DNA of 64,000 bases from a virus: IMG/VR virus record IMGVR_UViG_3300048592_000418, positions 1 to 64,000 of that record. The stretch is one strand, 5' to 3'. The position numbers were made by a program, and so were the translations under genes. Shown piece after piece: positions 8,779 through 50,331 of the stretch; the first letter of the stretch is position 1, and each line of letters starts with the position of its first letter. The notes under the pieces are model-generated. The model did no database searches and had not been told where the DNA came from. It saw nothing but the letters and a program-made list of their open reading frames with translations.

Positions 8779-9648
8779 ATGGATACACCGACAACGGCGG
8801 CGGAAACTACGGGAGCCAAAAGAGGTTCCCTTGCGACGAAACTCGCGATGGTTCTGACGAAGATCAATCGCGTCCCGAAGAACGGCGAAAACAAGTTTCA
8901 CAATTACAAGTTCGTCACCGAATCGGATCTGTCCGATGCAGTGCGGGCCCACCTTGGCGAAGTTGGCGTGTTCATCTTCACCGATCAGGCGGAAGTGACG
9001 CGCACCGAATGGAAAAAGACGAGCCGTGGGGAAGAGCAATGGATGACGCGCGTGAAGCTCACGCACACGTTCGTTGACGGCGACACGGGCGAGACGTTCA
9101 GTGTCACGAGTTACGGCGAGGGAATCGACGGTGGGGACAAAGGACTTTACAAATCGATCACCGGCGCGACGAAATACTTCCTTTACAAGAATTTTCTGAT
9201 CTCCACTGGCGACGATCCGGAGCGCGAAAACGACAACGAACGCCGGCAGGATCGCGAGGAAGCAGGCAGCGACGGACGCTACGCGCGCCGCGAGCGCGTT
9301 AATCCCGACGGCGACGGCGGACGCTCCCGCCAGCAGCAGAGCACGGGCGCCGCGGCCGGAACGGCGCAGCAGGAAAAGAAGGCGCCGGAAGTCCCGCGGG
9401 ATCCGGAAGTGAAGCTGGGGGACATGCTCCCGAATGGCGAGAAATGGGAAAACGTCGTCATTCACTTCGGGAAGAAATACAAGTCGAAGAAGCTCGGCGA
9501 ACTGACGCCGGAGCAGATCAACGCATGGGCGGACGAGTGGAATCCGTTCGCTGACGCCGAGGGAAACCGGCGCGAGGCGTCAGACGAAGACAAACACCTT
9601 CGGATCGCGCTGAACGCTTACAAGCGCGAGCGCGACGCGAAGCAGTAA
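8779..9648 (+). CDS. erf: ERF-family single-strand annealing protein
   Basis: The 289-residue product belongs to the ERF superfamily of phage recombinases, which anneal complementary ssDNA during recombination-dependent replication and genome circularisation. Residues about 15-140 form the core, including FHNYKFVTESDL and the diagnostic DKGLYKSITGATKYFLYKNF (120-139). Residues about 145-210 are a charged, Gln/Arg/Glu-rich linker, and the last 80 residues are a small extra domain (ELTPEQINAWADEWNPFAD) as in longer ERF proteins. It is the first gene of the recombination block, behind an operator copy. Partners should include the SSB (42824) and the RecU-like resolvase (19739). Confidence 0.9.
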   Translation: MDTPTTAAETTGAKRGSLATKLAMVLTKINRVPKNGENKFHNYKFVTESDLSDAVRAHLGEVGVFIFTDQAEVTRTEWKKTSRGEEQWMTRVKLTHTFVDGDTGETFSVTSYGEGIDGGDKGLYKSITGATKYFLYKNFLISTGDDPERENDNERRQDREEAGSDGRYARRERVNPDGDGGRSRQQQSTGAAAGTAQQEKKAPEVPRDPEVKLGDMLPNGEKWENVVIHFGKKYKSKKLGELTPEQINAWADEWNPFADAEGNRREASDEDKHLRIALNAYKRERDAKQ

Positions 9649-9691: not shown

Positions 9692-9713
9692 GAATGTTCC
9701 ACGTGGAACATTC
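9692..9713. promoter_or_regulatory. parS: 22-bp perfect palindrome containing a parS-like ParB site
   Basis: The 22 bases from 9692 to 9713 are a perfect palindrome whose 16-bp core, TGTTCCACGTGGAACA (9695-9710), fits the chromosomal parS consensus TGTTnCACGTGnAACA bound by ParB proteins. It lies 29 bases before the Rad50-like gene in a 94-base intergenic gap. ParB binding is inferred from sequence alone; it could instead be an operator for the downstream gene. Confidence 0.65.
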
Positions 9714-9742: not shown

Positions 9743-12112
9743 ATGAAATTAGAACGCATCATTGCCCGTGGTATCATGGGCTTAAACATAGACGAGAAAC
9801 TAGACGCGGCGAACGTGTTCGTCGCTCCGAATTGGCTGAAGGGAAAGACGGCGCGCGCGCATGCGATCACCGTCCTTTTGCTCGGCTATCTTCCGAAGCT
9901 CGGCAAACGCAATCAGGACACCGCGCGGCTGATGTCGGCGCGCGAAATGCATTTGGAAGGGCATTTTACCGGCGGGATCGTCCTGTCCCGGACGTTCACG
10001 ATGAAGGGCGGATCCGTGAAGTGCGAAGCGAAGATCCCGCCGCAGCTCGGCAACGCGGACGAACTGGCGATCATGCTGAACTTCGGCGAATACGCTGCGC
10101 AGACGGAACAGGCGCGCCGGGATTACGTGTTCGGACTGCTGAACCTGTCCGCGATGACGGAGTTCAGCGAATCAGCCATGGTGGGCGAAGTCCGTGCGGC
10201 CGTTGCGAAGGCGTGCGGCGAAGACGACGCGACGCGCAAGGCCGTTGACGCGCTGACCGCGAAGATCGCCGATTGCGTGAAGGAACAGGCGCCGGAGCTG
10301 ACGCGGGGCTGTGCATATTCTCCCGGCGAGGATCCGGAGCTGTCCCCGCAGCAATGGCTAGGCGTCGCACTCGAAGCCGCGGCCGAATTCACGAAGTCCG
10401 CGAAGGAATACGCCGCGCGGATGGAAAAGACGGTTCAGGGCATCACGACATTGAAACTTCAGGACACGGCGCCGGCCGTGAACCTCGCGGCCGTTGAAGC
10501 CGAGCGGGAGCGCGTCACGCGCGAGCGGGAAGCCATCGTTGCGCGCCGGGAAGAGCTGAACGCGCAGAAGAAGCAGATCGACGAAGCTCGCCGGCGCCGG
10601 AACCTGATCACGGAAACGCTGCGCGAACTTCAGCCGAAGATCGAAGCGCTCGCGGCACTGAAGGCGAAGCTCGCGGCGAACACGTCGAACAGCGAAGCGG
10701 CGGCGAAGGAAATGTTCGCGCTCGTGAAGACGCGGCACGATCTGGACACGCAGCTTCGCGAAATCGACGCCGCGGGGATCCGCCGGCGGGAAATCAATCA
10801 CCGGCTTCCGGCGTTGAAGCGCGCGAAGGACAAGGCGCAAGCGTGCCGCGATCACATGGAAGAGCTGGACAAGCGTTTCAGCTTCGAGCGGCTGACGACT
10901 GCGGGGCAGGCAGTGGCAACGGCGGAGGAAGCCGCGCGGTTCAATGCGAACGAGCAAACGCGGATCGGGCGCGATCTGCTGGACTACCGGCGCACGCTGG
11001 AAGGCCGGGAAACGGCGCTGGCGAGCATCGGAGCCGCGACGCAATGCCCGACATGCCATGCGGCCGGCGAAGGCTGGAAAGCGCTGCGAACGGCCGAACT
11101 GAACACGGAGATTCAGGAACTCACCGGCAAGATCGCGGCGCTGTCCGACGAATTGGAAGAACTGCGCGTGACGGCGGCGGAAGCAAGCGCGGCCGTGATG
11201 AAGGCGAAGAATGCGCACGCGGAGCTGATGCAGTTCGGACGCGAGCGCGATTCGCTCGAACGCGAGATCAAAGACTACGCGCGAGACGCGGAGGAAGCGG
11301 ACAAGCTCGAAGCCGAGCTGACCGCGCTCCCGCAGCCGAACGCGGAGCTGACCGCACAGTTCGGCACGGCGAACGCGCGATGGTCGGAGCTGGCGAAGGC
11401 GGCAGACGAGCGGCGCGCGCTCGAAGCGGACATTGCGAAGGCGGAAGCCGCGGCCGGCGACGTGCAACGGCTGAACGCCGAGCTGACCGCGCTGACGCCG
11501 GACGATCCGCAGATCGAAGCGGCGATTCAGGCGAAGGTTTCGGAATACAACGCGAATCTGACGCGCGCGAACGAGCTGGATCAGCAACGCCGGCTTGCGG
11601 AGAAACGCCAGAACGACGCGCAGCGCGCGGCCGAAGCGGAAACGCAGCGGACGGAAGCGCTCGCGGAAGTTGCCGTGTCGAAACAGGCGGCGGCAACGCT
11701 GAAGGAAATTCAGGAACGCTTTGTTCGCGCTGCATTCGATCCCGTGCTGAAGTCGGCGAACGCGCACTTCGGCGCCATCCTGCAAACGCCGCTCGCATAC
11801 AACGACGGCGAGATCGGCACGTGGCGAAACGGAACATGGGTTTCGCACAAGACATTCAGCGGCGCCGAAGAACGGCTTGCCTACTGCGCGATCAGCATCG
11901 CACTCGCCGCGCGCTCGAAGCTGAAGATCGCGATCATTGACGAACTCGGCACGGTGGACGACGGCAACGCCGCGAAGCTGATCGATGCCGTAGGCGCCGC
12001 GCTCGAAAGCGGATTCATCACGCAGTTCGTCGGAATCGACGCCGGCCGCGCGAAGCTCTATCGCGATCACGCCGCGTTCACAAATTACGTGTTGAACGTT
12101 CGCGAACTTTGA
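9743..12112 (+). CDS. Rad50/SbcC/SMC-like ATPase with zinc hook
   Basis: The 789-residue chain has the SMC/Rad50 plan: an N-terminal ATPase half, long coiled coils (about 240-430 and 445-660), a central hook QCPTC with Cys435 and Cys438, and a C-terminal ATPase half with signature TFSGAEERLAYC (from Thr704) and Walker B IAIIDELGTVD near 730. The P-loop is aberrant: APNWLKGKT near residues 28-36 in place of the usual GPNGxGKT, with one extra residue. ATP use is therefore uncertain. No Mre11/SbcD nuclease is adjacent; the next gene is a UvrD-like helicase. DNA end processing or genome organisation is likely, and the parS-like palindrome just upstream makes the latter worth considering. Confidence 0.8.
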   Translation: MKLERIIARGIMGLNIDEKLDAANVFVAPNWLKGKTARAHAITVLLLGYLPKLGKRNQDTARLMSAREMHLEGHFTGGIVLSRTFTMKGGSVKCEAKIPPQLGNADELAIMLNFGEYAAQTEQARRDYVFGLLNLSAMTEFSESAMVGEVRAAVAKACGEDDATRKAVDALTAKIADCVKEQAPELTRGCAYSPGEDPELSPQQWLGVALEAAAEFTKSAKEYAARMEKTVQGITTLKLQDTAPAVNLAAVEAERERVTREREAIVARREELNAQKKQIDEARRRRNLITETLRELQPKIEALAALKAKLAANTSNSEAAAKEMFALVKTRHDLDTQLREIDAAGIRRREINHRLPALKRAKDKAQACRDHMEELDKRFSFERLTTAGQAVATAEEAARFNANEQTRIGRDLLDYRRTLEGRETALASIGAATQCPTCHAAGEGWKALRTAELNTEIQELTGKIAALSDELEELRVTAAEASAAVMKAKNAHAELMQFGRERDSLEREIKDYARDAEEADKLEAELTALPQPNAELTAQFGTANARWSELAKAADERRALEADIAKAEAAAGDVQRLNAELTALTPDDPQIEAAIQAKVSEYNANLTRANELDQQRRLAEKRQNDAQRAAEAETQRTEALAEVAVSKQAAATLKEIQERFVRAAFDPVLKSANAHFGAILQTPLAYNDGEIGTWRNGTWVSHKTFSGAEERLAYCAISIALAARSKLKIAIIDELGTVDDGNAAKLIDAVGAALESGFITQFVGIDAGRAKLYRDHAAFTNYVLNVREL

Positions 12113-12141
12113 TTCACAAACGCGGTTCACGAAACGAAACC

Positions 12142-13845
12142 ATGACGAAGACACGCACGGCCGCGCAGACGGCCGCAATCGAATCCGACGCGAACGAGAT
12201 CGTTCTGTTGGCGGGACCGGGTTCCGGAAAAACAACGACGCTGATCGCGCGCATCCTGCATCGCGTCACGTTCGGCACGGCGCCGAAGAAGATCGCATGC
12301 ATCACGTTCACGAACGCCGCGGCGGACGAAATGGCCGCGCGCTTGCCGTCTGATGTTGTGCTCGGCTACGTCGGCACGCTTCACGGCTTCGCGCTCCGCT
12401 ATCTTCAGCGCTTCGGCCGACAAGTCGGCTACGGCGAGCGCGTTTCGCTGATCGGCGAAGACGAAGGCCGCGATCTGATGGAATCCATCGCGCGCGAGCT
12501 GAAGGTGAATCAGTCGCTTGATCGCCTGTGGGAAATGAAGAAGCAGGGCCGTCCGACGCAGCCGCGGCTTTCTCGCGATCACCTTGTCGTCGCCGAGTAT
12601 TTTGATCGGCTGAAGCGGGAGAGCGCGGCGGATTTCGACGTTCTGTTGACGGAGTTTCGCGATCTGCTTATGTCCGGCGCCGGCCGCGCGCTCGGCGACG
12701 ATTTCGCGGAGCTATACGTTGACGAGTTTCAGGACTCCGGAACCGTGGATTTTCAGATTTACGAACTGCTTCCTGTCGCGCGGAAGTTTTATGTCGGCGA
12801 TCCCGATCAATCGATCTACGGGTTCCGCGGCGCGGACGTGAACGGCATCCTGAAGAAAGCGCGCGGCGCCGGCGTTACCGCGATCAAGCTGGAAGAGAAT
12901 TTCCGTTCGCTCCCGGCGATCTGCGAAGCCGCGCAACGGCTGATCGAAAACAATCCGATCCGCGCGGCGAAGCGGACGATCAGCGCGTCTTCCGATCAAT
13001 GGGCCGATGACGCGGTGACATCGCTTCCCGCGTGCGATAACGAGCGCGAGGAAATTGGCCGCGTGATCGGAATCCTTCGGGACGAGCGCGCGGACATGGA
13101 TTCCGAGCGCATGCGGCCGGACTGGCACGACATTGCGATCCTGACGCGGACGAACGCGCTCGCCTACTCCTTCCGCGACGCGATCCGCGCGGCAGGGATC
13201 CCGGTTCACGAGCCGAAGAAGCGAACGGACCCGATGGCGTTTAGCATGCTGATCACGACGCTGAACTTCCTGATCGATCCGGAAAACAACCTCGCCGCGG
13301 AACAATACGTTCGCGCGCGGATGGGGAAGGAAATTGCGGCCGATCAGCGGCGGCAGGCAGCGGCGCGCCAGTGTTCGATCAACGCGCTTGCGATGCGTTA
13401 TCCGCAGAACATTCCCGCGCTGGACGCGCCGAAATGGCTGCGCGAAATCGGCATGGACGGCGAAGCGGTCATGTTCGTCTCGGAAAAGCTCCGCGCGATG
13501 CACGCGACGGCTGACACGACGATGGCGGATCTCGCGCTGCGCGTCATGATGCGCGAAGACGCGGACGACGATGACAGCGGCGGCGTTCACGTGATGACGG
13601 TTCACGCCGCGAAGGGCCGCGAATGGGATGTCGTCATTCTTCCCGCGTTCGAGGAAGAAGTGACGCCGAGCACGCGCATGGGCGCGAACATTCCGGAGGA
13701 ACGCCGGCTTGCCTACGTTGCCGCTACACGCGCGCGGCATCGGCTTTACATCACGACGGCGCGCGAGCGCGTCGCGAAATGGGGCGGATCACGCGTGCAT
13801 CGGCCGTCGCGCTTTTTGCGTGAACTGCTGGGGAATAACTCGTGA
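12142..13845 (+). CDS. UvrD/Rep-type superfamily I DNA helicase
   Basis: The product (567 aa from ATG 12142) carries the SF1A motif series: Walker A LLAGPGSGKTTT (residues 23-34), motif Ia TFTNAAADEM, Walker B VDEFQD (193-198), motif III VGDPDQSIYGFRG (218 onward), motif IV KLEENFRS, motif V HVMTVHAAKGREWDVV and motif VI LAYVAATRARHRLYI. These motifs indicate a 3'-5' DNA translocase acting in repair, recombination or replication restart. At about 570 residues it lacks the long 2B insertion of full UvrD. A TTG at 12109 overlapping the previous stop is possible, but the ACGAAACGAAACC leader before ATG 12142 favours the latter. Confidence 0.9.
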   Translation: MTKTRTAAQTAAIESDANEIVLLAGPGSGKTTTLIARILHRVTFGTAPKKIACITFTNAAADEMAARLPSDVVLGYVGTLHGFALRYLQRFGRQVGYGERVSLIGEDEGRDLMESIARELKVNQSLDRLWEMKKQGRPTQPRLSRDHLVVAEYFDRLKRESAADFDVLLTEFRDLLMSGAGRALGDDFAELYVDEFQDSGTVDFQIYELLPVARKFYVGDPDQSIYGFRGADVNGILKKARGAGVTAIKLEENFRSLPAICEAAQRLIENNPIRAAKRTISASSDQWADDAVTSLPACDNEREEIGRVIGILRDERADMDSERMRPDWHDIAILTRTNALAYSFRDAIRAAGIPVHEPKKRTDPMAFSMLITTLNFLIDPENNLAAEQYVRARMGKEIAADQRRQAAARQCSINALAMRYPQNIPALDAPKWLREIGMDGEAVMFVSEKLRAMHATADTTMADLALRVMMREDADDDDSGGVHVMTVHAAKGREWDVVILPAFEEEVTPSTRMGANIPEERRLAYVAATRARHRLYITTARERVAKWGGSRVHRPSRFLRELLGNNS

Positions 13846-14043: not shown

Positions 14044-14811
14044 ATGACGCCGAAAACGCACTCGTTCGACGTGGAATGCGCCAAAGTGATCGGCGTGGAC
14101 TGCGCAATCGTTCTGGCGTCAATCGCTTGGTGGGTAGGTCACAATAAAGCGAACCGGCGAAATTTCCGGAACGGCCGGCATTGGACCTATAATTCCGCGA
14201 AAGCATGGTCCGAGCTGCTTCCCTATTTCACGCCGAAGCAGATCCGCAGGATTCTCGAAGAACTGGAATCCGCCGGGCTGATCCTGAAGGACAACTTCAA
14301 TGAAAACACCTATGATCGCACGCTTTGGTATTCACTGACCGAAAAGGGCGAAAGCATTTGCCTTTCCGGGAAAATGGAAGGGCCGGTTGCGGAAGATGGA
14401 GATCCCGATCCGGTCCTTTCAATAGACAGTTCAATACCAGTTCAGAACCAAACGAAGGCAGCGGCGGGAGGAAAACCGGATTCAGAAATAGTGTTTCCCC
14501 CGATTCTCTGCACTCCCGCGTTCGGCATGAAGTGGAAGGAATGGCTCGAATATCGGCGGAAGGTTAAGCGCGATCCAGTAAAGCCGGCGACGCAGCGCAG
14601 GCAGCTCGAACGGCTCGCTGCGATTGGCGAAGCGAAGGCGCGCGCATGCATCGATCAGAGCATGGATAATCAATGGTCCGGGCTTTTCCCGGAGAAATTC
14701 GCGGCTGGCGGAGCGAAGTTCCAAGGCAAGACGGGCGGCACGTTTTCGGAATCGCAGTATGGCGAAAACCCATTCGGGGACACCGCCGGCGGAGAAAGGC
14801 AAGCGTCATGA
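14044..14811 (+). CDS. Replication initiator-like protein (winged helix, phage O/DnaD-like)
   Basis: The 255-residue product begins with a winged-helix-like domain (residues about 5-100: ...AKAWSELLPYFTPKQIRRILEELESAGLI, then YDRTLWYSLTEKGES). A Ser/Gln-rich linker leads to a C-terminal domain (about 155-225) with WKEWLEYRRKVKR, QLERLAAIGEAKA and SMDNQWSGLFPEKF, the pattern of primosome proteins that bind DNA and recruit the loader. It directly precedes the DnaC-like gene with an ATGA overlap, as O/P-type initiator and loader genes do. It likely recognises the phage origin and directs loading of a host DnaB-type helicase. Confidence 0.7.
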   Translation: MTPKTHSFDVECAKVIGVDCAIVLASIAWWVGHNKANRRNFRNGRHWTYNSAKAWSELLPYFTPKQIRRILEELESAGLILKDNFNENTYDRTLWYSLTEKGESICLSGKMEGPVAEDGDPDPVLSIDSSIPVQNQTKAAAGGKPDSEIVFPPILCTPAFGMKWKEWLEYRRKVKRDPVKPATQRRQLERLAAIGEAKARACIDQSMDNQWSGLFPEKFAAGGAKFQGKTGGTFSESQYGENPFGDTAGGERQAS

Positions 14812-21766: not shown

Positions 21767-22344
21767 TTGGGATCTATCAGATCCTTTGCGTTTCCTCCGG
21801 CCGGTTTTACATCGGTTCCGGAAGGAACATGCCGGAGCGTTGGAAGCAGCATCGGCGTGATCTTGTCGCCGGCAGGCACTTCAACCCGTTTCTGCAAAAC
21901 GCGTGGAATAAGCACGGCCGCGACGCATTCCGGTTCGTCGTTCTCGAAGTTGTCGCCGACGTGGCGAACCTACTGGAACGCGAGCGCGAGCACATTCTGA
22001 CGCTGAAGCCGGCGTTCAATCTCACGGACACGCCGCAAGGCGGGCCGGTGCGTATCGGCATGAAGAACACGCCGGAGCAAAACGCAAAAATCGCGCGGGC
22101 GCATTTGGGAAAGAAGCATACGCCGGAGACGCTGCGGAAAATGAGTGAGGCGAAGAAGGGCCGTGTTCCATGGAACAAGGGCAAGACTTGCGGTCCGTCA
22201 TGGAACAAGGGCCGCGGCTGGACGCCGGCACAGCGCGAAAAACTGATGAAGGTTCACGCCGAACGCGGTTCGCTGTCACCTGAACATCGCCGAAGCATCG
22301 GCGAGGGTTTGCGCCGCGCGTGGCAAGAGGGACGCAGAACATGA
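21763..22344 (+). CDS. GIY-YIG endonuclease with NUMOD3 repeats (homing-type)
   Basis: Translation from GTG 21763 (GTGA overlap) gives 193 residues starting IGIYQILCVSSGRFYIGSGR, the GIY-YIG catalytic core, with the helix RWKQHRRDL and a Glu near residue 73 (LEREREHILTLKP). The C-terminal half has NUMOD3-type DNA-binding repeats (LGKKHTPETLRKMSEAKKG and MKNTPEQNAKIARAHLG). This is the architecture of segment/homing endonucleases in phages, which cleave related phage DNA and spread. It sits within an operon without disrupting neighbours. The minus-strand HNH protein (29881-30534) shares the LGKKHTPET motif. Confidence 0.88.
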   Translation: MIGIYQILCVSSGRFYIGSGRNMPERWKQHRRDLVAGRHFNPFLQNAWNKHGRDAFRFVVLEVVADVANLLEREREHILTLKPAFNLTDTPQGGPVRIGMKNTPEQNAKIARAHLGKKHTPETLRKMSEAKKGRVPWNKGKTCGPSWNKGRGWTPAQREKLMKVHAERGSLSPEHRRSIGEGLRRAWQEGRRT

Positions 22345-31749: not shown

Positions 31750-32261
31750 AACGTCTTTTCTGGCGCCTGTGGTTCGCGAATCAGCGCGATTTTCAGGAAC
31801 CCGGAATTTACCTCACGCAATCACACACGGCGACGCTGAAGCGCATTCACGACGACATCGAAGCCGTCAGTGAAGACGACTTGGAAGGCGTCGCAAAGAT
31901 CAACGCGCTTGTCGCCGAGCGGAACCGGCTGAAGTTCAATCACCGGATCTTTCCGCTCTGGCAGAGCACGCCGCGCGCGGAGCTGGTCGAATTTCCGGAA
32001 GTCACGGTGATTATCGCGAAGGATCAGCCGCAATATCGGCCGCTTCCGGCGCATCGCGTGCCGGGAGATCCGCAGGGCCGGATCGTGTTCTGCTGGAAGC
32101 TGAACTTTCTCGCGCGGCTGCGCGTGCTCTTCACGGGCGAACTCTGGCATCAGGTTTTGACGTTCAATCACCCGCTGCAACCGCAGCAATTGGACGCGGT
32201 GAAGCCGGACATGGCGCCGGCGCCGGTTCCGCAGGCTGAACCCGTTCCCGCTTCGCCGTGA
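31728..32261 (+). CDS. Hypothetical protein (177 aa), conserved phage C-terminal segment
   Basis: ATG 31728 overlaps the DUF5131 gene by 22 bases. The product has a helical start (TATLKRIHDDIEAVSEDDLE) and a Trp/Leu-rich segment FLARLRVLFTGELWHQVLTF followed by NHPLQPQQL, which looks like a short amphipathic or membrane-associated motif. The last 15 residues are Pro/Ala-rich. It is joined by GTGA to the HerA-like gene. No function known. Confidence 0.55.
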   Translation: MSEQRTMKRLFWRLWFANQRDFQEPGIYLTQSHTATLKRIHDDIEAVSEDDLEGVAKINALVAERNRLKFNHRIFPLWQSTPRAELVEFPEVTVIIAKDQPQYRPLPAHRVPGDPQGRIVFCWKLNFLARLRVLFTGELWHQVLTFNHPLQPQQLDAVKPDMAPAPVPQAEPVPASP

Positions 32262-34072
32262 CTGCGCTGAACATCGGCACGGCGCGCGACGGCCGCGCGT
32301 TTACTCTCCCGCTCGAAGTCGTGACGACATCGCTCGCGATTCTCGCGAAGAAGCGCGTCGGGAAGAGTTACACCGCGGCCGTGATCGCGGAAGAGCTGAT
32401 GACGGCCGGTCAGCCGGTTGTCATCGTGGACATCACGGGCGCGCACTGGGGACTGAAGTCCAGCGCGAACGGCTCGAAGGCTATGTTCCCCGTTGTCATC
32501 TTCGGCGGGCGTCACGCGGACGTTCCGCTTGAAGAAAACGCCGGTAAGGTGATCGCCGCGGCCGTCGTTGAAAAACGGTTCTCCGCGATTCTCGACTTTT
32601 CGATCATGTCGAAAGCCGGGATGAAGCGCTTCCTGCTGGCGTTCATGGAAGAGCTTTACCGCATCAATCAGGAACCGATTCACCTGATTTGCGACGAAGC
32701 GGACCGCTACGCTCCACAGAAGCCGGACGGGGATGACGCGAAGCTGATCGCCGCGATGGACGACATCGTTTCCCGCGGCGGGATCAAGGGCATCGGCGTT
32801 TCGCTGATCACGCAGCGCTCGGCGAAGCTGAACAAAAACATCCTGACGCAATGCGAGCTTCTGATCGCGCTGCGCATCGTGCATCCGCTGGACGCGAAAA
32901 GCGTGATGGAATGGATCGAAATGCACGCGACGGAATCGGAGGCGAAGGAAATGCTCGAATCGCTCCCGACGCTTCCCATCGGCACCGGCTGGTTTTGGTG
33001 GCCGAACGAAGGCGAGCGGGACATTTTCGAGCGCGTGCGCGTCCGGCCGCGGCGGACGTTCGACAGCGGCGCGACGCCGAAAGCCGGCGTGAAAGTCGAA
33101 CAGCCGCGTCAGCTCGCATCCGTTGACGTGGCACAGCTCGGCGCGGACATCGCGTCATGCGTCCAGCGCGCGAAGGACAACGATCCCGCGGCGCTCCGGG
33201 CGGAGATCGCGCGGCTGAAAGGCGAGGTTCAGCGCGCGACGCGCGCGCAGCTCGCGGCCGAACTCGCAACGCCGAAGATGCCGGAACGCGTGTTCATCCT
33301 GTCGGACGAGCAAACGCGCTTGCTGAATCAGGTTCGCGACGCGCTGACGCAAGCCGAGCGCGGCGTGACGGAGCGGACGAAGGTGATCGAATTCGCCACC
33401 CTGACGCTTCAGAGCATCAATTCTGCGGTGAACGCGATTCACGGGAAGGATGCAACGGCGCCGGCGCCGCTCGTCATTCCGGGATGCGCGACGCGCGAGC
33501 AAGCCGTTCGGGCCGGGCGGTCCGTTGGCGTCGTTTGGCCGGATGCAGCTCCGAACCGGCCGGAAGTGACGGTTTCAAAGAACGGCGTTCGCTGGCGCGA
33601 ATCCGATTCGCTGTCTTCACCGCAACGGAAGTTGCTGACGATCCTCGCGCAGAACCCGGAAGGATGCCGGATCGAAAAGCTCGCGCTTTTGGGTGGATAC
33701 CGGATCGGCGGCGGATTCCGGAACCTGTTTTCGCAGATGCGCACGGCCGGCTGGATTGACGGCGAGAACACGGGGACGATGACGATCACGAAGTCCGGCC
33801 GCGAAGCGCTCGGCGACTTCGATCCGCTTCCGACGGGATCGGCGTTGGGCCGTTATTGGCTCGAAAGCGGCCGGCTGGGTGGGCCGGAAAAGCGGATCCT
33901 GCAAATGCTGCTGGACGATCCGAACGGCTTCACGATGGAACAGATCGCCGGACATTTGGACTACCGGATCGGCGGAGGCTTCCGGAACCTGTTCAGCAAA
34001 CTTCGCACGGCCGGGCTGATCGTCGGCTCGAACACGGAGCGCATGCGCGCGCATCCCGAACTTTTCGACTGA
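32258..34072 (+). CDS. HerA-like ATPase / DNA translocase with duplicated C-terminal winged helix
   Basis: GTG 32258 begins a 604-residue protein. Residues about 10-250 form a HerA/FtsK-type RecA-fold ATPase: Walker A AKKRVGKS (30-37), Walker B LICDEAD (Asp146, Glu147) and SLITQRSAKLNKNILTQCEL. Residues about 440-600 contain two winged-helix-like repeats sharing YRIGGGFRNLFS (about 486 and 569). HerA ATPases form hexameric rings and usually drive an end-processing nuclease. The next gene is a PD-(D/E)XK-like protein with a 1-base overlap, so the two may work as a pair. Both a DNA-processing and an interference role fit. Confidence 0.8.
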   Translation: MTALNIGTARDGRAFTLPLEVVTTSLAILAKKRVGKSYTAAVIAEELMTAGQPVVIVDITGAHWGLKSSANGSKAMFPVVIFGGRHADVPLEENAGKVIAAAVVEKRFSAILDFSIMSKAGMKRFLLAFMEELYRINQEPIHLICDEADRYAPQKPDGDDAKLIAAMDDIVSRGGIKGIGVSLITQRSAKLNKNILTQCELLIALRIVHPLDAKSVMEWIEMHATESEAKEMLESLPTLPIGTGWFWWPNEGERDIFERVRVRPRRTFDSGATPKAGVKVEQPRQLASVDVAQLGADIASCVQRAKDNDPAALRAEIARLKGEVQRATRAQLAAELATPKMPERVFILSDEQTRLLNQVRDALTQAERGVTERTKVIEFATLTLQSINSAVNAIHGKDATAPAPLVIPGCATREQAVRAGRSVGVVWPDAAPNRPEVTVSKNGVRWRESDSLSSPQRKLLTILAQNPEGCRIEKLALLGGYRIGGGFRNLFSQMRTAGWIDGENTGTMTITKSGREALGDFDPLPTGSALGRYWLESGRLGGPEKRILQMLLDDPNGFTMEQIAGHLDYRIGGGFRNLFSKLRTAGLIVGSNTERMRAHPELFD

Positions 34073-38501: not shown

Positions 38502-40655
38502 ATGACGACGAACTTAGACGATAAATTCAACCGGCCGGATCCTGTCTTCCGCGCTCCCATTGCGACGGCGCCAGTCTCGAAGGACAAAAACCCGCCGGTC
38601 TGGCCGGAGAAATTCCGCGCCGTGCTGTCCGTGCTGAAGTGGGACGAAGAAGATCTGGAAGTCCCGACGAAATACGGTCCGCGGCTGCTGCGGAAGGCAT
38701 TCCCGACACCGCAGTTTTACGAGCTTTGGCGCGACGAAAAGCCGGCGCTGAAAGAGCTGGGGATCTCGCTCGGACGCAATCCGCGAACGGACGAGTGGGA
38801 AGTTTGCCTGTGGCGCGAACTCCCGAAGGAACGCACTGCCGAGCGCGAAGCGGCGAAGGCGGCAAGCCGCGCGACGGATGCCGTGATCGATGTTCCGAAG
38901 CCGGACGGGCTGGAATATCTCGGCTATCAGCGCGCGGGGATCGCGTTTGGCATGCACCGGCCGGCGACGCTGATCGGCGATGAAATGGGACTGGGGAAGA
39001 CGATTCAGGCAATCGGCATCATGAATGTCGACACGGCCGCGAAGCGGATTCTCGTCCTTTGCCCGGCGTCGCTGAAGCTGAACTGGCACCGCGAGCTGAC
39101 GAAATGGCTCGTTCGGAAGCGCATCATTTTCGTCGGCGACTCGAAGGTTTGCCCGGATCTCGCCGACGGGATCGTGATCATCAATTACGACGTGCTGCAC
39201 AAGCACGCGGACTTCCTGCATTCCGTCGTTTGGGACATCGTTGTTGCGGACGAAGCGCACTACCTGAAGAACCGGAAGGCGCGCCGCTCGGAAATGGTTT
39301 TCGGTTACAAGCCGACGAAGAAGGAAGCGTTCAACGGCGCCGTCGAAAAGCCGGCGATTCAGGCGAAGCGGAAGATCTTCCTGACGGGAACGCCGATTGC
39401 GAACCGCACCGCGGAGCTGTTTCCGATCATTCACTATCTGGATCCGGTTTCATGGCCGACCTTCTTCGGCTACGCGCGGCGCTATTGCGCGGCGACGCAG
39501 GGCGCGCACGGCTGGGACTTTTCCGGCGCGTCGAATCTGGAAGAGCTTCAGGACAAACTTCGGCAAACGATCATGGTTCGCCGGCTGAAAAAAGACGTGC
39601 TGAAGGAACTCCCGCCGAAGCGGCGCCAGATCATCGAAATCCCCGCGGAAAAAGACATGGTTGCGGACATTCGCGCGGAAATGGACGCGTATGATCGCGC
39701 CATGAGCGGCGAGGGGATCGAACAGCTCGAAGTTGAAGCCGAGCTGGCGAAGGCGTCCGACGATCCGGAGGTTTACAAGCGGGCCGTTGAAAAGCTGAAG
39801 AAGGCCGGACAGGCGGCGTTCACGATGATCAGCGCGGTCCGCGCGGCGACGGCGGAGCGCAAGATCCGGATGCAGGCTGTCCGCGATCATCTCGAAGAAG
39901 CCGTTGAGAACAGCGGGAAGGTGATCATTTTCGCGCATCACAAAACCGTCGTTGCCGCGATTCTGGAACAGTTCGGCAACGCGGCCGTGGCAATCGTCGG
40001 CGACACGCCGATGAAGGATCGGCAAGACAACGTTGACCGCTTTCAAAAGGATCCGACGTGCAAGGTGATCGTCGGCTCGTTCGGCGCGATGGGAGTCGGG
40101 CACACGCTGACGGCTTCGAGTCACGTGATCATGGTGGAACTCGACTGGGTTCCCGGCAACGTGACGCAGGCGGAGGATCGCGCGCACCGTATCGGGCAAC
40201 TGGAAAACGTGCTCGTGCAACACTTGGTTCTCGAAGGTTCGCTGGACGCGCGGATCGCGAACAAGATCGTCGAAAAGCAGGACATCATTGATCGCGCGCT
40301 GGACAAAATCACGCTCGCCGCGGCGCCGATCAGCGTTCGGCCGAAGCGGAAGAGCGATGACGCAGCGACGGCCGGCGCGACGCCGGACAAGCTCGCCGAA
40401 GTCGGCGCGAAGCTGACGAACGACCAGATCGCCATGATTCACGAAGGGCTGAAGCGGCTCGCCGGAGTCTGCAACGGCGCCGTGGACTGGGACGGGATGG
40501 GTTTCAGCAAAATCGACACGATGATCGGAAAGTCGCTCGCGTTCTCTGCGTTCCTGTCCCGGAAACAGGCGGCGCTCGGAATGCGCCTGTGCATCAAATA
40601 CCGCGGGCAGCTCGGCGACGGCATGATCGCGCGCATCAAAGGGGACATGGTATGA
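38502..40655 (+). CDS. SNF2-family DNA helicase / ATPase
   Basis: The 717-residue product carries the SF2/SNF2 motifs: LIGDEMGLGKTIQAI (motif I, Lys166 in GKT), LVLCPASLKLNWHRELTKWL (Ia), VVADEAHYLKN (DEAH 250-253), LTGTPIANRTAELFPII (III), IIFAHHKTVVAAIL (IV), VGSFGAMGVGHTLTASSHVI (V) and QAEDRAHRIGQ (VI, HRIGQ 562-566). The size and motif order resemble compact SMARCAL1-type proteins, which remodel or anneal forked DNA. It is a DNA-dependent ATPase likely acting in phage replication or fork repair. An operator-promoter precedes it. Confidence 0.92.
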   Translation: MTTNLDDKFNRPDPVFRAPIATAPVSKDKNPPVWPEKFRAVLSVLKWDEEDLEVPTKYGPRLLRKAFPTPQFYELWRDEKPALKELGISLGRNPRTDEWEVCLWRELPKERTAEREAAKAASRATDAVIDVPKPDGLEYLGYQRAGIAFGMHRPATLIGDEMGLGKTIQAIGIMNVDTAAKRILVLCPASLKLNWHRELTKWLVRKRIIFVGDSKVCPDLADGIVIINYDVLHKHADFLHSVVWDIVVADEAHYLKNRKARRSEMVFGYKPTKKEAFNGAVEKPAIQAKRKIFLTGTPIANRTAELFPIIHYLDPVSWPTFFGYARRYCAATQGAHGWDFSGASNLEELQDKLRQTIMVRRLKKDVLKELPPKRRQIIEIPAEKDMVADIRAEMDAYDRAMSGEGIEQLEVEAELAKASDDPEVYKRAVEKLKKAGQAAFTMISAVRAATAERKIRMQAVRDHLEEAVENSGKVIIFAHHKTVVAAILEQFGNAAVAIVGDTPMKDRQDNVDRFQKDPTCKVIVGSFGAMGVGHTLTASSHVIMVELDWVPGNVTQAEDRAHRIGQLENVLVQHLVLEGSLDARIANKIVEKQDIIDRALDKITLAAAPISVRPKRKSDDAATAGATPDKLAEVGAKLTNDQIAMIHEGLKRLAGVCNGAVDWDGMGFSKIDTMIGKSLAFSAFLSRKQAALGMRLCIKYRGQLGDGMIARIKGDMV

Positions 40656-46013: not shown

Positions 46014-46232
46014 ATGAACACAATCGCAAAGCAGCTTGTCGCGGACATGGGCGCCGCGTTGATCGGCCGTGAGATTCACACGATTCCGTTCGGCGCATAT
46101 CCCGGCGGAGTCGCGAAGGTGACGGAGCTGACGCCGGATCCGCAGGCGCCGGAAATCGTCATGCAAGTCGAACACCCGACGTTCGGATCCATCGGCGTGT
46201 TCGAGGACGAACCCGTTGAACTCGCTTCATGA
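46014..46232 (+). CDS. Small hypothetical protein (72 aa)
   Basis: ATG 46014 is ten bases after the preceding stop. The product is small and hydrophobic/acidic (MNTIAKQLVADMGAALIGRE, PEIVMQVEHPTFGSIGVFED). No recognised motif. The stop overlaps the next start. Confidence 0.45.
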   Translation: MNTIAKQLVADMGAALIGREIHTIPFGAYPGGVAKVTELTPDPQAPEIVMQVEHPTFGSIGVFEDEPVELAS

Positions 46233-47146
46233 AGTCTGAAACGGGCGGGAAGAAGGTCGCGGAATTCGTTTTCGCATACAAGGGACCGGAGACGCAGCGC
46301 GCGCCGGAAGGCGAGCACGCGGAACCCGATGAAGACAGGAAGCCGCTTCCGCTCGTCCGCGATCAGAAATGCCGGATCGCCGTTTACGTCGTCTCGAAGC
46401 TGAAGGAAACGGATTCGCCACCCCATGAAACCGGCGAGTCATATTTCCGTCTGGAATGCGACGCGCCGAAGATGCGGCTCGAAGGAACGGACATCGAACT
46501 TTTGAGGAAGGAAGCGTTCGGCCGGTGCAATGAGCATTACGCGACGAAATGGGAACCCTACTTCATCGTTGAAGTTCGGCGCATCGGATTCTCGAACGGC
46601 TACGGGACGGATCTGGATTTTTGCTATCGCGAATGCTGGAAGGGAACCGCGCATGACGGGACGCTTTTACTGAAGGATCGCCACTGGGGAGAGCGTGACG
46701 AAAAGATCAGCGCATGGCCGGGCGAATTCCGGGACCGCGAAGGCAAGGTGATCGCGTGCATCCCGAAGACGCCGGCGAACAAGGTCGCGCTGGAACAGTT
46801 CACCGCGAAGATTGATCAGATTCGCGGCGCGCTCGCCGACATGCTGCGGCCGGAACTGATCATGCATACGCTTTTGAATCAGAATCAGCTCGCGCTTCGC
46901 GCGCCGAAGACGGCGCCGGCCGAATACGTGACGCACGCGCCAGTTCCGAACGAGATCACGGAGGAAATGATCGCACAGGTGACGGAGGCGATCCGCACTT
47001 CGGGGAAGGCGCACATTCACACGGCATTCGTTCAGCGGCGTTTGAAAATCGGATGGCTGCGCGGTCAGCGCGTGATTGAAGAGCTGAAGAAGCGATCCAT
47101 TCTCGGCGACGAAACAGCGGCCGGTTTTATTATTCTTGCATCATGA
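46229..47146 (+). CDS. Hypothetical protein with C-terminal FtsK-gamma-like winged helix (305 aa)
   Basis: ATG 46229 overlaps the previous stop. The last about 70 residues (MIAQVTEAIRTSGKAHIHTA, then FVQRRLKIGWLRGQRVIEEL and KKRSILGDETAAG) match the FtsK gamma-type winged helix, a DNA-sequence-reading module, in the order of helix, wing and recognition helix. The N-terminal part has FIVEVRRIGFSNGYGTDLDF. A DNA-recognition role is likely for the C terminus; the remainder is unknown. Confidence 0.6.
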   Translation: MKSETGGKKVAEFVFAYKGPETQRAPEGEHAEPDEDRKPLPLVRDQKCRIAVYVVSKLKETDSPPHETGESYFRLECDAPKMRLEGTDIELLRKEAFGRCNEHYATKWEPYFIVEVRRIGFSNGYGTDLDFCYRECWKGTAHDGTLLLKDRHWGERDEKISAWPGEFRDREGKVIACIPKTPANKVALEQFTAKIDQIRGALADMLRPELIMHTLLNQNQLALRAPKTAPAEYVTHAPVPNEITEEMIAQVTEAIRTSGKAHIHTAFVQRRLKIGWLRGQRVIEELKKRSILGDETAAGFIILAS

Positions 47147-47705: not shown

Positions 47706-48186
47706 TCGCTTTCTCGAAATCCACGAAGCGGAGCTGAACGCGAAGACGGCCGCGGAGCTGAAGCGGGACGCATGGGCCGGCGACGCGCTGCTTCGCGCGG
47801 CCGTCACGATTATCGTGATCGCGCTCGAACCGAAGGACGCGCAGCGGCGGAACTGGATCGTTTGCCAAGCCGTGAGCAATGAACACATGGCGATTTGTTG
47901 CCGCTCGTTCATGCCGCGCTCGCCGGCGGGACTGAAGCAGAGCACGGCGTAAAACCGCTATCGCGAAGACGTTCACCGACACGGGACGCGGCTCGAAGCG
48001 GCTGTGCTTTACGAATACCGGCGCCGCGGCGGGGCGGAACACGGCGGCATCACGGCCGCGATTGAGATTGCGCGATTCCTGATCTCGAAGACGTGCTTTG
48101 CCCGGACGAACGAAGCGGTAACTGTCCCGATTGACAACACGGCTTTGGCTGCTCTGACTGCCGTGCATGACGCCGAAACGAGCTGA
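47665..48186 (+). pseudogene. RNase III-like gene interrupted by one in-frame TAA
   Basis: ATG 47674 (or 47665) starts a frame reading ELKRDAWAGDALLRAAVT and AVSNEHMAICCRSF, then TAA at 47950-47952. Without leaving the frame it continues NRYREDVHRHGTRLEAAVL, then YEYRRRGGAEHGG and AIEIARFLISK, to 48186. GDALL matches the RNase III signature, SNEHMA the S-N-x-x-L/M-A segment, and TRLEAAVLYEYRRRGG the E-A-x-x-G/Y-x-x-Y-x-x-x-GG end. Several catalytic acids are replaced. The gene is either broken, read through, or misread at one base. The downstream part overlaps the ParB-like start by 20 bases. Confidence 0.5.
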
Positions 48187-48805
48187 CGGAATTCCAGTCC
48201 ACTGCGCGCACTCGAAGCTGGTTGAGATCGGCACGTTAAAGCCGCATCCGAAGAATCCCAACACACATCCCGAGCGGCAAGTGAAGTTGCTCGCGAAGGT
48301 GATCAAGCTGAACGGATGGCGTCGCGCCATCGTCGTGTCAGACCGGAGCGGATACATCGTGAAGGGACACGGCACGCTGATGGCCGCGCAGCTCGCGAAG
48401 CTGAAGGAAGTCCCCGTTGACGTTCAGCACTACGAAGACGACGAAGCGGAGATCCGCGATCTGATCGCCGACAACCGGATCCCGGAATTGTCCTATCGTG
48501 AAAACCGCAGTGTCGTCGCGCTGCTTCAGCAGCTCGAAGCGAAGGGACAGGACATCGAATCGGCCGGCTACGCGAACGACGAACTTCAGGCATTGATCGC
48601 GACGCTCGAAGCGAACGTGACGGACGGCGCGCAACGCGCGGGCCGGCGCACGCACAACGAAGCGGACACGATGCTAGTTCTCGGACCGTATCGCGTGAAG
48701 ATCCCGCGGGCGGATTTCGCGAGCTGGCACGAAAAGATCCGTCAGCAAGTCGGCTTCAAAGCTGAAGACGTTCACGCGGAAATCCGGCGCCGGCTGTCCC
48801 TCTGA
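48167..48805 (+). CDS. ParB/sulfiredoxin-fold nuclease-like protein (212 aa)
   Basis: ATG 48167. The first about 110 residues match the ParB N-terminal/sulfiredoxin fold: VEIGTLKPHPKNPNTHPERQ, LLAKVIKLNGWRRAIVVSDR and IVKGHGTLMAAQLAKLKEVP, with GHG in place of the GHxR of chromosomal ParB. The C-terminal part lacks a clear helix-turn-helix or methyltransferase domain. Phage proteins with this fold often bind nucleotides or accompany DNA methyltransferases. It cannot be assumed to bind the parS-like palindrome at 9692. Confidence 0.68.
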   Translation: MTPKRADGIPVHCAHSKLVEIGTLKPHPKNPNTHPERQVKLLAKVIKLNGWRRAIVVSDRSGYIVKGHGTLMAAQLAKLKEVPVDVQHYEDDEAEIRDLIADNRIPELSYRENRSVVALLQQLEAKGQDIESAGYANDELQALIATLEANVTDGAQRAGRRTHNEADTMLVLGPYRVKIPRADFASWHEKIRQQVGFKAEDVHAEIRRRLSL

Positions 48806-50331
48806 TGAAGCTCGTTCCCGTCAAACTGCTGACGCCGGCGGCATACAATCCGCGCGTCGTTGATCCCGAACGGCTGGCAATGGTCCGGCTGTCGCTGCGG
48901 AAGCTGGGCTGGCTTCTTCCCGTGTTCGCGACGGAGGAAGGCGAGATCCTGAGTGGGCATCAGCGCACGCACGAAGCCGCGGCGCTCGGATACACGCAAG
49001 TTCCCGTTCGGCCGCTCCCACCCATGGCGACGGGGAAGCTGAAGGCGCTGAACATCCTGTTCAATCGTTCCACGAACGACATGGACATTGACGCCGTTCC
49101 GGCGGAGCTGAAGGCGCGCATTTCCGCGGAGGACGTGCGCAAGCTCGCCGCGGCGCTCCCGGATCACCCGATCAGCTCGTTCCCGTGCATGCACGCAAAC
49201 CGGGTGGAGATCGGGCCGCTCGTGAAGGCGAACGCCGGCCGCTGGATTCCCTACGCATACACGGTCGCGAAGTCGCTCGCCGCGCAGGGGATCACGATGC
49301 CGTTGATCGTGGGGCCGGATGACGTGGTGATCAACGGCATCGGCCGGTTGCAAATGCTCGCCGAGCGGAAGGAAGAAACGGCGGAAGCGATTTACCTGCG
49401 CGCGGAGCAAGCGGAGTTCGCGCGGCTGATGCTGAACTTCCTTTCGATGGATTTCGACCTGAAGGCGAAATATGCGGATCTTCTGCGTTACGGCAGTTTT
49501 CGCCGGCTGCGGCGGCAGCGCACCGAACTGGGACGCGGCTTCGTCTTCGCGATCACCGGGAACCGGGCCGCGCGTCATTTCGACATCACGGACGCGGCAT
49601 CGCGCGAGCGCTGGATCGCCGAGCACGGCCGCAACGTGCTGGACTTCGGCGCCGGACACCTGACGGAAACGAACCTGCTTCGCGCCGTTGGCGTGGAATG
49701 CACGCCGTTCGAGCCGTATCGCGTGAACCCGGACCGGGAGGAAATCGACAAGGCGGAATCGCTGCGCGTCGTCCGCGAATTCCTCGCCGCAGTGGAGAGC
49801 AAGCGCGAGTTCAGCAGCATCTTCATCAGCTCCGTCCTGAACTCCGTTCCGTTCGAGGAAGATCGGCGCGCCATCGTGACGATTCTGCGCGCATGCGCCG
49901 GCCGGCGGACGAAGGTTTACGCCGTCGCCAGCAGCGATCAGCAACGCGGGTTGAAAAACATGGGGAAGAAGTTCCTGAATCAGCGTTCGGAGCAATACGG
50001 CTTCATGCTCGCGGGTTACGAACCGAACGTGATCGTCGGCGAGCTGGCGACGAAGCCGAAAGCGCAGAAATACCACACGCCGGACGAGTTCCACGCGCTG
50101 TTCCGGACCGGATTCGGCCGCGTGTCCGTGAAGTATGACGGGGAAGGCGGCGCGAACATCAGCGCGATTGCCTGCGACCCGATGCCGTTCCGCTCGAAGG
50201 CCGATTTCGCGCAGCTCGCCGCGGCGCTGGCGTTCGAGTTTGATCTTCCATACCCGGACGGCTCGCGCATGGGCATGGCGGAGGAAGCGAAGGCGGCGTT
50301 CGGCGAACGGCTGGGGCAGATCATCGCATGA
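48805..50331 (+). CDS. ParB-like N-terminal domain fused to a methyltransferase-like region (508 aa)
   Basis: ATG 48805 overlaps the previous stop by one base. Residues about 5-75 are ParB/Srx-like (KLLTPAAYNPRVVDPERLAM, ILSGHQRTHEAAALGY). The middle (ADLLRYGSFRRLRRQRTELG) leads to VLDFGAGHLTETNLLRAVG near residue 280, a SAM-binding-like motif I, followed by FSSIFISSVLNSVPFEEDRR. This is a domain pairing seen in phage DNA-modification proteins. The MTase core lacks a clear N-P-P-Y-type catalytic motif. The pair with the upstream ParB-like gene may form one complex. Confidence 0.68.
   Translation: MKLVPVKLLTPAAYNPRVVDPERLAMVRLSLRKLGWLLPVFATEEGEILSGHQRTHEAAALGYTQVPVRPLPPMATGKLKALNILFNRSTNDMDIDAVPAELKARISAEDVRKLAAALPDHPISSFPCMHANRVEIGPLVKANAGRWIPYAYTVAKSLAAQGITMPLIVGPDDVVINGIGRLQMLAERKEETAEAIYLRAEQAEFARLMLNFLSMDFDLKAKYADLLRYGSFRRLRRQRTELGRGFVFAITGNRAARHFDITDAASRERWIAEHGRNVLDFGAGHLTETNLLRAVGVECTPFEPYRVNPDREEIDKAESLRVVREFLAAVESKREFSSIFISSVLNSVPFEEDRRAIVTILRACAGRRTKVYAVASSDQQRGLKNMGKKFLNQRSEQYGFMLAGYEPNVIVGELATKPKAQKYHTPDEFHALFRTGFGRVSVKYDGEGGANISAIACDPMPFRSKADFAQLAAALAFEFDLPYPDGSRMGMAEEAKAAFGERLGQIIA

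Follow-up and report, generated by a model that had tools for sequence, protein, structure and literature searches.

A host-type parS palindrome in a tailed phage genome without ParA, and its probable recognition by host ParB

Introduction

On recognizing the centromere site parS, a ParB dimer forms a CTP-dependent clamp that slides onto neighbouring DNA and engages both ParA and SMC. Plasmid-prophages such as P1 encode their own ParA and ParB and use a different parS; the phage described here resembles them in carrying a centromere on a phage genome, and differs from them in that ParA and canonical ParB are absent from it.

The genome of phage phi29 is reported to be trapped in spores through the host ParB protein, Spo0J (PMC9437464, citing Meijer et al. 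2005, EMBO J 24:3647). Like the present phage, phi29 has perfect parS sites and no par genes, and its chromosome is captured by Spo0J. It is a podophage of only 19 kb that infects a spore-former and is subject to Spo0A control and to entrapment in spores, whereas our phage is an unrelated tailed phage of ~102 kb. Moreover, phi29 carries four perfect sites and our phage a single one rather than several, and there is no sign of a sporulating host here.

The integrative element SGI1 exploits the ParABS system of another replicon by means of parS mimics, through which it stabilizes itself and displaces its helper (PMC10954446). The strategy proposed below is similar, in that parS would be borrowed from the ParABS system of another replicon. 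SGI1, however, is not a phage and uses a plasmid-type (IncC) parS, and its binding and stability were demonstrated experimentally (PMC10954446).

The chromosomal parS sites of Bacillus, Pseudomonas and Myxococcus (the M. xanthus consensus being TGTTCCACGTGGAACG; PMC3899335) share a 16-bp core that is identical to that of the phage, and the phage's entire 22-mer is also present in bacterial genomes. Unlike chromosomal parS, the phage site is located without an accompanying parA or parB and far from bacterial origins.

Results

We analysed a 64,000-nucleotide stretch of viral DNA (hereafter ‘the window’) drawn from a source record of 102,004 bp. The first and last 127 bases of that record are identical, and we therefore regard the genome as complete. 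The window contains a perfect 22-bp palindrome, GAATGTTCCACGTGGAACATTC (positions 9692–9713, strand not assigned), which corresponds to a host-type parS with extended arms. Its inner 16 bases, TGTTCCACGTGGAACA (9695–9710, likewise unstranded), fit the 16-bp chromosomal parS consensus TGTTNCACGTGNAACA with no mismatches, and display the usual pyrimidine and purine at the two free positions. Exact matches to the core are expected by chance only 0.8e-4 to 2e-4 times per 64 kb (Markov models of order 1–4), and the next longest perfect palindromes within the window measure 14 bp. The consensus matches the window once, even with three mismatches allowed, and the whole 102,004-bp record also contains that single copy, a second site being absent even at three mismatches. 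A preliminary description of this DNA had reported the palindrome and its chromosomal-type core with exact sequence and coordinates, and had proposed the genome-wide count that yielded this single copy. Judged by its sequence, the palindrome is a genuine, non-random parS of the chromosomal type, and it is very probably a functional site for host ParB.

Two other features were considered and set aside. An open reading frame that starts inside parS (MFHVEH, at 9694) is an out-of-frame shadow of the downstream gene, and its GC pattern across codon positions is the wrong one. A 14-bp palindrome, TGTTCCATGGAACA (22164–22177), resembles parS minus its central CG but is no parS site: it encodes the peptide VPWNKGK within what looks like a homing endonuclease repeat.

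The palindrome is intergenic, in a 94-bp gap that follows the stop codon of the gene for an Erf-family single-strand annealing protein (8779–9648, + strand; PF04404 E 5.6e-14; phrog_155 E 8.9e-28) and runs up to the start codon of an SbcC/Rad50-like ATPase gene (9743–12112, +; phrog_77 E 3e-6 over residues 250–643). Inspection of the latter protein by eye revealed a degenerate Walker A motif, one CPTC zinc-hook motif and an IIDE Walker B motif. It is followed by genes for a UvrD-family helicase in the same block (12109–13845, +; PF00580 E 1.3e-43; phrog_1967 E 2.5e-90) and an O-like/DnaD-like replication initiation protein (14044–14811, +; phrog_11233 E 4.1e-35; phrog_678 E 4.3e-17). From this gene order (Erf, parS, Rad50-like, UvrD, O-like initiator) we conclude that parS heads a recombination and replication block. 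The distance of 29 bases between the palindrome and the ATG at 9743 agrees exactly with the earlier account. That account had also placed parS next to the Rad50-like gene; the adjacency stands, and nothing beyond adjacency was found, the protein having no relatives in IMG/VR or among isolated phages. Nor, across phages, did parS prove to be associated with SMC/Rad50 genes: neighbours annotated as ‘DNA sulfur modification’ proteins turned out to be members of the DndB family and not Rad50-like.

A profile search of the whole 102,004-bp record for ParA (PF13614) gave no match, in agreement with the preliminary description. Two adjacent genes, 38 kb from parS, encode ParB-fold proteins. The product of the first (48167–48805, +; phrog_620) yields the only ParB_N match in the genome, below the cut-off (PF02195, 21.3 bits against 26.3), and is similar to the Spo0J structure 1vz0 (E 6e-4). 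The second (48805–50331, +; phrog_5475 E 1.9e-98) is a ParB-fold/methyltransferase fusion (Methyltransf_23 E 2.2e-5, below cut-off), an arrangement described as typical of phages and prophages (PMC12704722). The suggestion that both lack a clear ParB DNA-binding domain was borne out, in that a ParB helix-turn-helix was seen in neither, and on sequence evidence the 48167 protein is not the parS reader. The complete genome thus encodes no ParABS system of its own (ParA together with a helix-turn-helix ParB); it carries parS with ParA and canonical ParB both absent, as a borrowed centromere would be. Because ParA is lacking, and because the ParB-type proteins have no helix-turn-helix and lie 38 kb away, host ParB is the expected reader.

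Chromosomal parB is reported from 84% of bacterial orders (PMC12704722), and we assume that the host of this phage has ParB. An attempt to infer that host from the nearest phages gave no clear answer. The genome encodes a terminase large subunit, a portal and a head morphogenesis protein, the cultured relatives of which are mostly from phages of Gram-negative bacteria. Searches with the Erf and portal proteins returned distant relatives only; parS was absent from the seven cultured phages that share a distantly related portal protein, and no close relatives were found.

In bacterial genomes, the exact 22-mer GAATGTTCCACGTGGAACATTC is present in at least 120 stretches belonging to many phyla, against ~0.01 expected in 257 billion bases (carriers among the matches listed include Acidobacteria, Sphingomonas, Alcanivorax, Bdellovibrio and Clostridia), and in five other viral contigs. 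Within IMG/VR, the 18-mer palindrome ATGTTCCACGTGGAACAT was found in at least 120 stretches, as compared to none for its half-site-shuffled counterpart ATTGTCCACGTGGACAAT. Among isolated phages, a 32-bp parS query matched 123 records, whereas two shuffled palindromes matched 7 and 0, and a Bacillus-type version of the query matched 256. The site examined here is thus not an isolated oddity, and parS is strongly over-represented in phage collections.

We also scanned IMG/VR with the degenerate pattern TGTTNCACGTGNAACA, in which positions 5 and 12 are free, and removed sites with shared flanks, leaving 127 independent sites. Of these, 120 followed the chromosomal rule, with position 5 occupied by a pyrimidine and position 12 by a purine. 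This is the strongest internal control in the analysis, since the search pattern left both positions free, and it shows that the parS sites of phages, taken as a class, obey the chromosomal ParB recognition rule. The same sites were intergenic in 29% of cases, versus 8% for random positions on the same contigs, and those inside genes encode unrelated peptides in all three frames. In 50 long viral records that contain parS sites, the reversed pattern had no matches; one of these records encodes ParA and three give a ParB_N match, and no record has the two together. Some of the metagenomic contigs classed as ‘viral’ may in fact be of bacterial origin, and neither the isolated phages nor the test of positions 5 and 12 relies on such contigs alone.

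Perfect parS sites, one to six per genome, were present in Pseudomonas, Bacillus, Lactobacillus, Arthrobacter and filamentous phages, nearly always with ParA and ParB absent. Pseudomonas phage SYP has five, of which two appear to represent a single site lying in repeated ends; Ep020 and XD2 have three each and KoPa-4 two, with one or two near matches apiece in these four genomes. Bacillus phage BcoS-136 carries four within 1 kb, Lactobacillus phage Lpa804 three and Arthrobacter phage Racecar two, and the filamentous inovirus bajarodino virus 6 has six perfect TGTTTCACGTGAAACA sites in a genome of only 5910 bp with no par genes. Among the isolates checked, ParA was not found in any, and a ParB_N match only in Tyrumbra. 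Phages T4 and 121Q have no parS; their host, E. coli, is not known to have a chromosomal ParABS system, and Escherichia is outside the ten commonest organisms in either isolated-phage search. The preliminary description had called the element unusual, which does not fit with the recurrence of parS in so many unrelated phages or with the published reliance of phi29 on host ParB. Its proposal that host ParB is the likely binder fared better, given the exact core, the specificity controls, the lack of par genes and the parS sites of many isolated phages. An open-access literature search for phage-borne host parS sites other than those of phi29 found none.

Several matches were judged to be coincidental. 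Four metagenomic relatives identified by their portal proteins contain a parS match that corresponds to terL codons for the peptide VPRGT; the match changes along with the peptide, and most relatives do not have it. The terminase clade in question encodes VPRGT with bases that spell parS, and because these codons produce the motif we discounted the terL matches; the peptide accounts for most of the motif, and selection at the DNA level might contribute. RaK2-like Klebsiella and Munch-like Salmonella jumbo phages have matches that lie, where annotated, in baseplate-wedge genes (RaK2 itself has one, inside a baseplate gene) and are probably coincidences as well. Some phage parS matches are therefore coding coincidences.

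In Pseudomonas phages SYP, Ep020 and KoPa-4, and in one metagenomic virus (G035), a parS-like site is positioned within ~120 bp of a DndB-family gene; it is possible that the DndB-family protein is a phage partner of host ParB. A separate virus of 169 kb (G019) carries 12 perfect sites, which are confined to the first 18.2 kb and the final 430 bases of its record. Together with one near match they span ~18.6 kb across the record ends, mostly between small genes, in an arrangement that resembles a chromosomal centromere cluster; ParA and ParB were not found in it.

Discussion

The best overall explanation, to which we assign a probability of roughly one half, is that host ParB binds the palindrome as a genuine parS, and that the main use of the site is the tethering or positioning of phage DNA. 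From established ParB biology, host ParB would bind the phage site and close on it as a CTP-dependent clamp, and the clamped protein would be expected to slide onto the adjoining recombination and replication genes and coat that block. The host's ParA and SMC segregation apparatus could in this way become linked to the phage genome. The benefit may be that phage DNA is tethered or positioned in the cell, and we consider the odds that such tethering is the main use of parS to be about even. The uses named in the preliminary description, namely segregation, anchoring and disturbance of the host, would look alike at the level of sequence. Against our explanation, there is one copy here, as compared to 2–12 in the clear cases, the seven cultured phages with a related portal have no site, and some of the phage matches arise from coding coincidence.

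A single copy is also a difficulty for the idea that the site acts as a decoy, in which a replicating phage would multiply parS, divert ParB (and SMC loading along with it) from the host origin and upset host segregation. Extra parS copies on SGI1 do destabilize the plasmid whose ParB they capture (PMC10954446), transcription data from P. aeruginosa suggest that an imbalance of ParA, ParB and parS can trigger the SOS response (PMC5521831), and some phages carry 6–12 sites; one site per genome would nonetheless soak up little ParB, and in a lytic infection the host dies before its segregation is of much consequence. We regard a decoy as unlikely, if the least unlikely of the alternatives. A regulatory role, in which ParB bound at parS and sliding outward would repress or insulate the Rad50-like gene and the replication block, is likewise unlikely. 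It would suit the intergenic position of the site, 29 bp ahead of a start codon, the preference of phage sites for intergenic positions, and the repression by P. aeruginosa ParB of promoters beside parS3 and parS4 (PMC5521831). However, we found no sigma-70-like promoter match beside parS, the neighbouring genes vary in other phages, and many phage sites are within genes.

The remaining alternatives dispense with host ParB as the sole reader, or with parS function altogether. That the palindrome is a random one, an RNA hairpin or the site of an unrelated regulator seems quite improbable. Its transcript could form a 9-bp hairpin with a 4-base loop, and coding coincidence does produce some parS matches elsewhere; but the fold z-score is only −1.4, there is no terminator-type T tract beside the site and no Rfam match at it (for which reasons we rejected an RNA element or terminator), only ~2e-4 occurrences of the core would be expected, and fewer of the 22-bp palindrome, and the exact 22-mer recurs across bacterial genomes. 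The least probable reading is that a ParB-fold protein of the phage, the product of the 48167 or the 48805 gene, reads parS by itself or with host ParB. Both proteins do contain a ParB-type domain, and the DndB family, a member of which is encoded near parS in the three Pseudomonas phages and the metagenomic virus noted above, has been described as ParB-like (PMC12704722). Yet neither protein has the ParB helix-turn-helix, their genes are remote from the site, one of them is a methyltransferase fusion, and such proteins are absent from most parS-bearing phages. The identity of the site with chromosomal parS fits host ParB as the reader instead.

Recognition by host ParB would place the site within a known and apparently much broader kind. 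We suggest tentatively, at somewhat less than even odds, that a host centromere carried without Par proteins is a widespread and convergent strategy, by which unrelated tailed and filamentous phages, in lytic or chronic infection, load host ParB and through it ParA and SMC, and that the present phage is a single-site example. If host ParB does load onto such sites, chromosome segregation would be a general handle for phages and not a curiosity of phi29 in spores, and the presence of centromere sites on the genomes of lytic and filamentous phages would be explained. Culturable phages with two to six sites, and laboratory hosts with a deletable parB, make the idea directly testable.

Elsewhere in the same genome, a 305-residue protein (46229–47146, +) ends in a C-terminal winged helix similar to the FtsK gamma domain (PF09397 E 3e-7, just below the curated cut-off). 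The FtsK gamma domain reads the polar sequences that guide FtsK along host chromosomes, and this would be a second segregation-related domain in the phage. The phage also encodes a HerA/DUF87-like ATPase (32258–34072, +) and an SNF2-family helicase (38502–40655, +).
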